Below are positions 9,955 to 27,408 of a stretch of 52,848 nt of DNA, piece by piece. Location of the stretch: the NCBI GenBank assembly GCA_003003615.1, contig PVWD01000009.1, positions 1 through 52,848 of the forward strand. Direction: 5' to 3'. The DNA is from a filamentous cyanobacterium CCP2. GTDB taxonomy: Bacteria > Cyanobacteriota > Cyanobacteriia > Elainellales > Elainellaceae. The position numbers and the translations under genes are program-made. The number at the start of each line of letters is the position of its first letter. Positions within the stretch are counted from its first letter, which is position 1. The notes beneath the pieces were generated by a model, which saw only the letters and a program-made list of their open reading frames with translations, had not been told where the DNA came from and did not search any database.

Positions 9955-10791
9955 ATGCCCCACCCCCCCCTTGAAATTGACAAGCTGATCAACTTGGCGA
10001 ACGCTGAATGGTTGGTGAATGGTGAATTGTTATCTTCGTTGGTAAATTCACCGCCCAATCACTTTAGAACAAATGGCGTTTCGGAGGCGTTTCAGTTTGG
10101 CTTGCAATCGACTGAAACTGAATCCCAAATGACTCAACTACAGGCAGAAATTGCTGCCCTAAAGCACGAATTAACAACGCTGAAGCAAGAGAAAACCGAT
10201 CTGGAAATCTTGCTGGAAACAACGGCTGAACATTCCGATTCGGTTGAAGCGGAACTGCACCATACCGCGATCGAAGCCCTGCGGCAAAGTGAGGAATGGT
10301 TTCGGACGATCGCAGAAGCAACGCCTGTTCCGGTGTTAATTTCCCGTGTGGAAGATGGTGCTATTTTGTATACGAATACGGCGGCAGGTGCCATGTTTGG
10401 ACTGTCCACCGAGGAATTATTGCAGCGTCGATCGCTGGAGCTTTATCATAACCCAAATGATCGCCGATCGCTGTTAGAAGCCATTGAGCGAAATGGTTCC
10501 GTCCAAAGTTTTGAGCTTCAGTTTAAGCGGGCAGACGGTAGCCTGTTTTGGGTGACTGCATCGCTGCGGCAATTGACCTTTAGCCAAGAGCCAACCATTC
10601 TGACGGCTCTCTGCGATATCACTCAGCGCAAGTTAGAAGAAGAAGCATTGAAGCAGCAAGTACGGGAAATGCAGATTGAAATTGACCATGCCAAGCGAGT
10701 GCGGCAGGTTGCTGAAATTGTGCAAACCGACTACTTCCAAGAATTGCAGGCAGAGGTTGAACGGTTGCGATATTCAGAGGAGGATTGGTAA
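9955..10791 (+). CDS. PAS-domain sensor protein
   Basis: 278 aa from the ATG at 9955, chosen because GGAG lies six nt upstream; the frame is open to a GTG at 9919. Residues ~50-100 form a coiled coil (LQAEIAALKHELTTLKQEK), followed by a PAS/S-box domain (WFRTIAEATPVPVLISRVEDGAILYTN...FELQFKRADGSLFWVTASLR) with a PAC-like end (CDITQRKLEEEAL) and a second coiled coil. No kinase or other output domain is present, so it probably signals through protein contacts. It is the first gene of a compact operon with a MinD-like ATPase, a SpoIIE phosphatase and two partner-switching proteins. Confidence 0.88.
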   Translation: MPHPPLEIDKLINLANAEWLVNGELLSSLVNSPPNHFRTNGVSEAFQFGLQSTETESQMTQLQAEIAALKHELTTLKQEKTDLEILLETTAEHSDSVEAELHHTAIEALRQSEEWFRTIAEATPVPVLISRVEDGAILYTNTAAGAMFGLSTEELLQRRSLELYHNPNDRRSLLEAIERNGSVQSFELQFKRADGSLFWVTASLRQLTFSQEPTILTALCDITQRKLEEEALKQQVREMQIEIDHAKRVRQVAEIVQTDYFQELQAEVERLRYSEEDW

Positions 10792-10793
10792 TC

Positions 10794-11549
10794 GTGACTA
10801 AAGTAATTGCAATTCATTCTTATCGAGGTGGAACAGGAAAATCCAACTTGACGGCAAATCTGGCAACGACGATCGCCCTTCAAGGAAACCGTGTAGCCGT
10901 AGTCGATACTGATCTTCAGTCTCCTGGTATCCATACGTTGTTCGGTCTTGATGAACAATCAACGGATAAAACGCTGAATGATTATTTATGGGATCGCAGC
11001 CCGATTCAGGATGCAGCGTATGATGTCAGTTCTAAATTACGTATTGAGAATTCAGAACGGCTGTTCCTAGTGCCCGCCAGCGTCAATGCTGAAGAAATTG
11101 CCCGAATTCTTAGTGAAGGTTACAACGTGAGTTTGCTAAATGATGGGTTCCGCCAACTGATTAAAGAATTAGATCTAGATTATTTGTTTATTGATACGCA
11201 TCCAGGCTTAAGCCGAGAAACGCTATTGTCGATCGCTATTTCCAATTTGCTGATCTTGATTCTGCGCCCAGATCAACAAGATTTCCAAGGCACTGCCGTA
11301 ACGATTGATGTGGCGCGTCAACTGAAAGTTCGTAAGCTGTCGTTGGTCATTAACAAAGTCTTGAGTAAGCTCGATCGTGCAGCCCTTCAGCAGAAAGTTG
11401 AAACGACGTATAGTGCTGCTGTGGCAGGTATTTTCCCATTGTCAGACGACATGATTGAACTGGGAAGTAGTGGACTATTTTGCTTGCACTATGCTGATCA
11501 TCCCTTTACTCAATCGTTATACCAAGTTGCAGCACATATTATGAACTGA
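10794..11549 (+). CDS. MinD/ParA-like ATPase of the signalling operon
   Basis: 251 aa from GTG at 10794, two nt after the PAS stop, with GAGGAGGA about nine nt upstream (a TTG at 10785 is less likely). P-loop SYRGGTGKSN: the signature lysine of deviant Walker A motifs is replaced by Arg. It has VVDTDLQSPG (switch I region) and LFIDTHPGLS (Walker B-like). It is close to MinD-type ATPases, but a cell-division role is unlikely: it is embedded between a PAS protein and a SpoIIE phosphatase. It may position or gate the phosphatase module at the membrane (inference). Confidence 0.88.
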   Translation: MTKVIAIHSYRGGTGKSNLTANLATTIALQGNRVAVVDTDLQSPGIHTLFGLDEQSTDKTLNDYLWDRSPIQDAAYDVSSKLRIENSERLFLVPASVNAEEIARILSEGYNVSLLNDGFRQLIKELDLDYLFIDTHPGLSRETLLSIAISNLLILILRPDQQDFQGTAVTIDVARQLKVRKLSLVINKVLSKLDRAALQQKVETTYSAAVAGIFPLSDDMIELGSSGLFCLHYADHPFTQSLYQVAAHIMN

Positions 11550-25448: not shown

Positions 25449-25675
25449 AGGATTCAAGGCACATTTCACCCAGATCCTTTCCCCTTGACCGTTATGCCCT
25501 GAACATCACAAAAATTTAAACCATTTTTCAATAATTGTTCTAAACTCCTGCCGTTTTAGTATGATTCATCTCAGGGCTAAATATTGGGTATAGCAGTACG
25601 AAAGAAGATGAGGATAATTTTGGGTTCTCAGCAGATTGGATTGTAGAAACCTGGAATTGTCTTAACCTTGACTCC

Positions 25676-26479
25676 ATGCTCTGTTGCATACACTTTGGAA
25701 ATGAGTTGACGGTTCACCCAGTGGCAAAAGTAATTACGATCTTCAACCAAGCAGGTGGTGTGGGTAAAACGAGCCTGACTATGAACCTGGGCTATCAGTT
25801 AGGACAACGAAAAAAACAGCGTGTTCTTCTCGTCGATATGGATCCGCAGGCTAGCCTAACTATCTTTATGGGAGTTGAGCCGTCTGACCTGGAAATCACT
25901 GTGAAGGATGCAATCCTTGATAAAAAGCCTTTGCCCATCCACCATGCAATCCACGGGATGGACTTGGTTCCAGCCAACATTTTGCTTAGTGCGGCGGAAA
26001 TGCAGCTTGCTTCTGTCCTTCGACGAGAGTTACGGCTAAAACAGGCGATCGACAAAGTATCAACAGATTATGACTTTGTTTTAATTGACTCACCGCCTAG
26101 CTTGGGAATGCTCAGCACTTTAAGCCTAGTCGCAGCCAATTACGTCTTGATTCCAAGCCAAACTCAGTTTAAGAGTATTCAAGGGACAAATTTAGTCCTG
26201 CAAACGATCGCCGATGTCAGAGATGCGATCGACCATAAGCTTGAACTTGCCGGAGTCATTCCCACCATTTATGCCAAAGGTACATTGCAGGATCGCGAGG
26301 CCCTCAGCGTCCTTGAAAGCCAGCTTTCAGCTATCACGAAAGTTTATCCACCCCTTCCCCGTTCCACTGTTTTTCCAGATGCATCTCAAGAGCGATTACC
26401 GTTAGCCGTATTTAGTCCAAGACATCCAGCAGTTACGATTCTCAAACAGATAGCAAAAGATTTGGAGAAGTTACCTTGA
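25676..26479 (+). CDS. parA: ParA-family partition ATPase
   Basis: Up to 267 aa. The family-like N-terminus is VAKVITIFNQAGGVGKTSL, so a GTG at 25721 (252 aa) is an alternative start to the ATG at 25676. It has the Walker A (QAGGVGKTS), LLVDMDPQASLT (switch) and LIDSPPSLGM (Walker B). No N-terminal HTH, so it is a type Ib-like or chromosomal-size ParA. It overlaps the parB start by four nt. It moves and segregates the replicon together with ParB bound to a centromere. Confidence 0.92.
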   Translation: MLCCIHFGNELTVHPVAKVITIFNQAGGVGKTSLTMNLGYQLGQRKKQRVLLVDMDPQASLTIFMGVEPSDLEITVKDAILDKKPLPIHHAIHGMDLVPANILLSAAEMQLASVLRRELRLKQAIDKVSTDYDFVLIDSPPSLGMLSTLSLVAANYVLIPSQTQFKSIQGTNLVLQTIADVRDAIDHKLELAGVIPTIYAKGTLQDREALSVLESQLSAITKVYPPLPRSTVFPDASQERLPLAVFSPRHPAVTILKQIAKDLEKLP

Positions 26480-27408
26480 GTACCAAGCGACAACGAACTC
26501 AATATTCTGCTTTAAGCGGAGTCAATGCATTTCTAAGCAGTGGAGAGAAAAAAATCTCTGAGAAATCAAATAGCACCATTCCAATTGAAAGTATCCGACT
26601 GCCTCACCGCCAACCCCGACGCTATTTTGACCCTGCCAAAATGGAAAAGCTAACGCAGTCGGTGAAGGAGTACGGTATTTTAGAGCCTCTTCTAGTCAGA
26701 AGTCTGGCGGACGGTAAGTATGAACTTGTTGCTGGAGAACGGCGATACCGTGCGGCAAAGGAGGCCGGTCTGGAAGAAGTTCCTATCTCTATCCGAGATT
26801 TAGACGATGCCCAGGCTTTGCAAATTGCCCTCCTTGAGAACTTGCAGCGTGAAGACCTCAACCCGGTAGAGGAAACGGAAGGTCTCCTCGATCTGTTATC
26901 CATTACGCTACAGACCTCCAGAGAGGAGATCATTAGCACCTTAAATATTGCTGCCCATGCAAGGCGGAAAGGAGAGCAGATTGCGGATAACGTTATCCGC
27001 AAGAACCTAGATGAAATCGAAAAGGTTTTTACTCTAGTGGGAACCCTAAGCCCTGAAAGCTTTCGGACAAACCGCTTACCTTTGCTGAATCTGCCTGGAG
27101 AAGTCCTTGAGGCACTGAGAACGGGACAGCTAGAGTATACGAAGGCTAGAGCAATTGCCAAACTGAAGGAGCCGAAGCAGCGTCAACAATTTTTAAAGAG
27201 GGCGATCGCTGAGAATCTCTCTTTGACTCAGATTCGGGAGGAAATCAAACGAAATCTTTCCTCCCCTGCTGAACCACTAGACTTTAATCGTAGGTTTTCC
27301 AAAATTGAACAAACGATTCGACGCAAAGGCATTCTGAAGGATGTAGAAAAACGACGAGAAATCGATAACCTACTAAGAAGCTTGGAGAGTTTAATTGGTG
27401 AGTCGTAG
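26476..27408 (+). CDS. parB: ParB-family partition protein
   Basis: 310 aa from TTG at 26476, which overlaps the parA stop (TTGA) and has GGAG eight nt upstream. The N-terminal ParB/Srx nuclease-like CTPase domain is clear: IPIESIRLPHRQPRRYFDPAKMEKL, ELVAGERRYRAAKEAG (arginine-rich nucleotide motif) and QIALLENLQREDLNPVEE. A helix-turn-helix region follows and the C-terminus is helical for dimerisation. It binds a parS-like centromere and spreads. A perfect 22-bp palindrome lies inside this gene (26981-27002). Confidence 0.93.
   Translation: MSTKRQRTQYSALSGVNAFLSSGEKKISEKSNSTIPIESIRLPHRQPRRYFDPAKMEKLTQSVKEYGILEPLLVRSLADGKYELVAGERRYRAAKEAGLEEVPISIRDLDDAQALQIALLENLQREDLNPVEETEGLLDLLSITLQTSREEIISTLNIAAHARRKGEQIADNVIRKNLDEIEKVFTLVGTLSPESFRTNRLPLLNLPGEVLEALRTGQLEYTKARAIAKLKEPKQRQQFLKRAIAENLSLTQIREEIKRNLSSPAEPLDFNRRFSKIEQTIRRKGILKDVEKRREIDNLLRSLESLIGES
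26981..27002. promoter_or_regulatory. Perfect 22-bp palindrome within parB (candidate centromere)
   Basis: TTGCGGATAAC followed by its exact reverse complement GTTATCCGCAA. It lies in the coding sequence around codons for IADNVIR. Its length makes chance unlikely in a window this size. Its position within the partition operon fits a parS-like site, though no binding evidence exists. Confidence 0.5.

Follow-up and report, generated by a model that had tools for sequence, protein, structure and literature searches.

The parB gene of the filamentous cyanobacterium CCP2 contains a perfect palindrome of 22 bp, which raises the question of what such an element does within a coding sequence. An earlier note on the window (the whole 52,848-nt stretch of DNA analysed here, 52.8 kb) placed the palindrome at 26981-27002 and proposed that it was a parS-like centromere or a site of autoregulation. 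We recovered it at exactly these positions, and the following features are used below:

25553..25575, + strand: GTTTTAGTATGATTCATCTCAGG, upstream of parA, non-palindromic, identical in the nearest relative (L084) despite differing surroundings
25721..26479, + strand: parA (Walker ATPase), likely GTG start at 25721; the open reading frame opens at 25676
26476..27408, + strand: parB, 310 aa, with a ParB_N (CTPase-type) domain at residues 34-124 and HTH_ParB at 198-260
26980..27003, + strand: codons 169-176 (IADNVIRK), the palindrome-encoded peptide, forming a loop and the first turn of the next helix
26981..27002, no strand: candidate parS, the 22-bp perfect palindrome TTGCGGATAACGTTATCCGCAA, with core AACGTT and arm ATCCGCAA
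27052..27090, + strand: recognition helix PESFRTNRLPLLN, codons 193-205, with N199 at 27070-27072 and R197 at 27064-27066

The operon has the make-up of a type I ParABS system with a Spo0J-type ParB: a Walker-type ParA gene lies beside parB, ParB has both a ParB_N (CTPase) domain and HTH_ParB, and a palindromic DNA site occurs within the operon. The parA product matched AAA_31/CbiA (E = 2e-47), its start at 25721 was chosen by conservation with L084, and its stop codon overlaps the TTG start of parB. The window ParB matched PF02195 (E = 8e-33) and PF17762 (E = 2e-12); its nearest solved relatives are Spo0J/ParB/Noc, and its fold agrees with ParB/Noc structures. Alignment to Thermus Spo0J (1vz0) placed IADNVIRK within a lineage-specific insertion of about 34 residues (~158-191), on either side of which lie the two parts of the canonical helix-turn-helix. 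In an AlphaFold2 model (mean pLDDT 90; helices 149-165, 172-188, and 193-205 in full numbering), this peptide falls at the loop between the first two of these helices, shortly before the recognition helix. Upstream of parA, GTTTTAGTATGATTCATCTCAGG is probably a promoter or operator element of parAB, judging from its conservation. The DNA of the window is likely a plasmid; its other products include heavy-metal ATPases, an RND efflux pump, and cupredoxins. A scan of window ORFs revealed no recognisable replication gene, and the window ends showed no terminal overlap of the kind that marks a closed plasmid. A second ParA/MinD-type ATPase, without a ParB, is encoded at 10785-11546 and adjoins PAS and SpoIIE-phosphatase genes.

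TTGCGGATAACGTTATCCGCAA is the sole perfect palindrome with a half-length of at least 8 (16 bp or more) in the window, and it occurs once there and once in the 6.95-Mb genome. Neither an exact search nor a search with the 18-bp core allowing up to 3 mismatches found a second copy in the genome; the latter returned one further match, which has 3 mismatches and is at chance level. The note's estimate of ~1% for a chance occurrence was correct for the window (0.013 perfect 22-bp palindromes expected); however, ~1.7 are expected in the whole genome, and length alone is therefore a weak argument against chance. When the window parB was shuffled among synonymous codons, a half-length of at least 11 arose in 3 of 5,000 trials. 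The canonical chromosomal parS is a 16-bp site, TGTTNCACGTGAAACA. As the note had anticipated, TTGCGGATAACGTTATCCGCAA does not match this consensus on direct comparison, agreement being limited to the central ACGT and an A four bases from the centre.

Unlike length, comparison with related genes excludes chance. At the same codon position, 80 cyanobacterial parB relatives (39-58% identity) carry palindromes of differing sequence, many perfect in 11 of 11 positions and almost always centred on AACGTT. In codon-aligned sequences, linker palindromes with a half-length of at least 8 were found in 114 of 160 related parB genes, compared to 3 of 242 control ORFs and to 5.6% of the same parB genes after synonymous shuffling. 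Both arms change together across related parB genes, with at least 38 distinct 5-nt arms among the 123 assigned, while the 135 intragenic palindromes in the count (half-length of at least 7; core AACGTT, AGCGCT, or ACCGGT) share a single reading frame, AAC|GTT. Palindromy was retested by anchoring on the linker AACGTT alone, leaving the arms unconstrained and scoring six arm positions. Of 138 such sites, 88 had zero mismatches and 30 had one (118/138 with 0-1), whereas AACGTT elsewhere in the same genes had 3-6 mismatches over the six positions. The nearest relative, L084, has a ParB 78% identical to that of the window and a parB 71.8% identical at the DNA level, and the palindrome plus one flanking base is the sole fully conserved stretch of at least 22 nt between the two genes. 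Thus, the search of related parB genes that the earlier note had called for located a palindrome at the homologous site, with its core kept and its arms diversified. A clear intragenic palindrome was lacking in 46 of the 160 relatives, and in 37 of these no site was found in the available sequence either. Four close relatives with serine at residue 199 (L172, L173, L174, and L277) had no palindrome in parB or the available flank. None of the IMG/VR viral-contig relatives examined had an intragenic AACGTT palindrome, and no insertion-borne palindrome of this kind was found for the Deinococcus, Cupriavidus, Sinorhizobium, and Manganitrophus ParBs.

In a training set of 96 non-redundant ParBs, residues of the recognition helix and of the preceding helix share information with the arm bases above all background columns. 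The clearest pairing is that of residue 199, a recognition-helix position that the palindrome does not itself encode, with arm base 1: asparagine goes with A (49/50), histidine with G (15/15), serine with T or C (22/22), threonine with T (7/7), and lysine with T (2/2). This rule is correct for 95 of the 96 proteins, and in the single exception (L159) the palindrome lies 25 kb from its parB. Since it is also obeyed by 8 of 9 ParBs whose palindrome is solely outside the gene, the rule is not an artefact of overlap between site and gene. In new genomes, with ParBs less than 90% identical to the training set, it was correct in 29 of 29 cases. When changes were mapped on a tree from which the helix-turn-helix region had been left out, those of residue 199 and arm base 1 shared a branch 14.5 times, compared to 3.0 expected, the top excess among the columns tested. 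Covariation with arm bases 3-4 was seen for R197. Canonical parS likewise has A at the position that corresponds, in distance from the centre, to arm base 1. N199 of the window protein aligns with N178 of Caulobacter ParB, which is listed as a parS-contacting residue (PMC7383237).

Further copies near the operon, which the note had named as support, are present in relatives and absent from the window and from its own genome. In relatives, they occur upstream of parA, in the interval from parA to parB, or downstream of parB; of the 22 loci with palindromes inside as well as outside the gene, 21 have the same 16-bp core in both. The second parB of the CCP2 genome (contig C1) has a different palindrome, TTGAACCACAACGTTGTGGTTCAA, which is intragenic and repeated upstream of parA. 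Among complete plasmids, L155 has an intragenic copy plus an evenly spaced array of three copies between parA and parB (~199-bp spacing), and L157 has its palindrome outside parB only. Two or three in-frame internal palindromes, 45-126 nt apart, were found in 14 parB genes, including L059, L063, L064, L067, L069, L025, L037, L040, L043, and L150, in which the ParB loop is lengthened; from their sequences, these genes look like intragenic centromere arrays. Inside and outside palindromes have different cores in L147. In L287, the intragenic palindrome AATGGAAACGTTTCCATT is unlike TTACCCATAACGTTATGGGTAA, which lies ~1 kb upstream, fits another ParB type, and is perhaps a foreign or hybrid site. 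Perfect palindromes of a non-AACGTT type were also observed, one of 44 bp in L111 (~1675 bp past the parB ORF start) and others of 30-34 bp around AGAACTATTTCCGGAAATAGTTCT in L153 (at 17303 and 20623); these long palindromes are possibly sites of plasmid replication or recombination. Within genomes, 30 of 32 pairs had different 5-nt arms, and between genomes 63 of 1346 pairs shared arms. Avoidance of shared arms within genomes is not demonstrated by these counts (the effect was not significant), because sharing is also rare between genomes.

Taken together, the covariation of the arms, the additional copies that relatives have close to the operon with an identical sequence, and the code that links a ParB residue to a base support the reading that this ParABS system has the palindrome as its parS centromere, placed within the parB coding sequence itself. 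We assign this reading a probability of about 0.93 on sequence evidence. Of the roles the note had proposed, the parS-like site is by far the best supported, given palindromes at the homologous position with a constant AACGTT and diversified arms; autoregulation may occur as a by-product, several relatives having a second copy upstream of parA. In the mechanism we propose, a ParB dimer would bind the palindrome with each recognition helix contacting one half-site, N199 reading the A that adjoins the AACGTT core, and outer bases being read by R197 and residues 157-161. Once bound, ParB would load as a CTP clamp and spread, as other Spo0J-type ParBs do, and ParA would move the ParB-parS complex. 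We infer the binding, clamp loading, segregation, and autoregulation steps from the comparisons above. The coding side would tolerate parS because the helix-turn-helix insertion that contains the site forms a variable loop. Moreover, the candidate site lies within ~70 bp of the codons of the reading residues, and site and reader would therefore travel and diversify as a unit.

Could the palindrome instead be mainly an operator through which ParB limits its own transcription, with segregation using another site? The second copy that many relatives have upstream of parA, ~670-1190 bp before parB, is in a natural operator position, as this explanation would predict. However, L153 and L156, which are complete plasmids, have no palindrome of the AACGTT kind apart from the intragenic site, which would consequently have to be the centromere too, and both the three-copy array of L155 and the 14 parB genes with 2-3 internal copies resemble centromere arrays. 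We therefore regard a mainly autoregulatory site as unlikely, although the operator and centromere roles are compatible.

Two further explanations are far less probable still. One is that the sequence acts as a hairpin in the parAB mRNA that governs translation, decay, or pausing. Any perfect palindrome can fold, and TTGCGGATAACGTTATCCGCAA does (z = -2.8), but RNA stems favour G.U pairs, and the mismatches at sites with no more than 2 of them were A.C in 28 cases, G.U in 8, and other in 14. An RNA element marked by compensatory changes with G.U tolerated was accordingly rejected. Furthermore, AACGTT is retained even though a hairpin loop need not be palindromic, non-coding DNA also contains copies, and an arm base can be predicted from a DNA-binding residue of ParB, all of which make an RNA hairpin most improbable. 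The other explanation, that the palindrome arose by chance or through in-frame insertion of a mobile or selfish palindromic element, draws on the number of such palindromes expected per genome of this size and on the multiple copies in some parB genes, which resemble tandem duplications. It is hard to credit in view of the conserved position and covarying arms across genera and two phyla, of arms that follow the ParB sequence, and of a 22-mer that is single in its genome rather than dispersed.

The second phylum is represented by Thermus, and here the centromere reading can be compared with a described system. In two Thermus plasmids (L163 and L164), the same codons hold a perfect palindrome of 24 bp, GCTACCCAAAACGTTTTGGGTAGC, with the AACGTT core, and GC3 is 0.50 inside it compared to 0.90-0.96 outside. 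In T. thermophilus HB27, parBm (L162, 8938-9831) contains a near-palindrome with one mismatch, TAGGGACAACGTTGTTCCTA, in the homologous linker, and its product obeys the residue-199 rule (histidine with G). When produced from its own gene in E. coli, the HB27 protein ParBm forms foci; its binding is replicon-specific, and the published parSm is a 14-mer within parBm, AAGGACGCGTCCTT, supported by EMSA (PMC4409726). This 14-mer differs from TAGGGACAACGTTGTTCCTA, lies farther downstream in parBm, and is absent from the parB of Thermus plasmid L163. By comparison with its relatives, the AACGTT site TAGGGACAACGTTGTTCCTA may be a second, perhaps the principal, predicted ParBm site. The window and the HB27 megaplasmid would thus share an intragenic site in a non-chromosomal parB, and their ParBs are homologous with the same helix-turn-helix insertion; the HB27 report differs in placing parSm elsewhere in the gene and does not describe family-wide covariation (PMC4409726).

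Other partition systems offer partial parallels. The parS sites of B. subtilis are several near-identical sequences near oriC that have not diversified with ParB. One of them, parS-359, sits within parB/spo0J, as proposed here, but is a canonical TGTTNCACGTGAAACA site (PMC4442127). In the repABC plasmids of Alphaproteobacteria, the location of parS varies and is sometimes at the repB 5' end or within ORFs; these sites are likewise palindromic and in or near the partition operon, but belong to another family (RepB) with another palindrome, are mostly intergenic, and do not lie in the coding sequence of a DNA-binding-domain loop (PMC9040568). In the ParB/Noc switch, four residues change specificity between parS and NBS while N178 is conserved (PMC7383237). 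As in our proposal, specificity there is set by recognition-helix residues and the half-sites are read symmetrically; unlike there, the N178-equivalent position in the present family varies (N/H/S/T/K/A) together with the base.

Although an intragenic parS is already known from B. subtilis parS-359 (PMC4442127) and Thermus parSm (PMC4409726), what appears to be new is a predicted family-wide centromere in the part of parB that encodes the DNA-binding domain of its reader, where at least 38 arm types have diversified together with ParB and arrays occur within the gene. We found no described parS of a cyanobacterial plasmid among the open-access papers searched, and this novelty is provisional because the search was confined to such papers. 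It seems probable that cyanobacteria and Thermus share a plasmid partition family in which the address is inherited as a unit with its reader. Coupled change would have produced dozens of mutually distinct specificities under a legible amino-acid-to-base code, and the hypervariable ParB loop would be dictated by centromere sequence rather than by protein function, this loop being sometimes lengthened to accommodate 2-3 centromere copies. The sequence of that loop would then be set by a DNA site, a trap if it is interpreted as protein conservation. Each cyanobacterial plasmid parB would yield a predicted centromere readable from the gene, and the family would be a source of candidate orthogonal ParB-parS pairs with which to label DNA or build stable vectors for cyanobacteria. 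As a natural library of candidate ParB-parS pairs, it would make the diversification of centromere specificity, and with it plasmid incompatibility, directly testable, beginning with the prediction that one ParB residue switches one base of the site.
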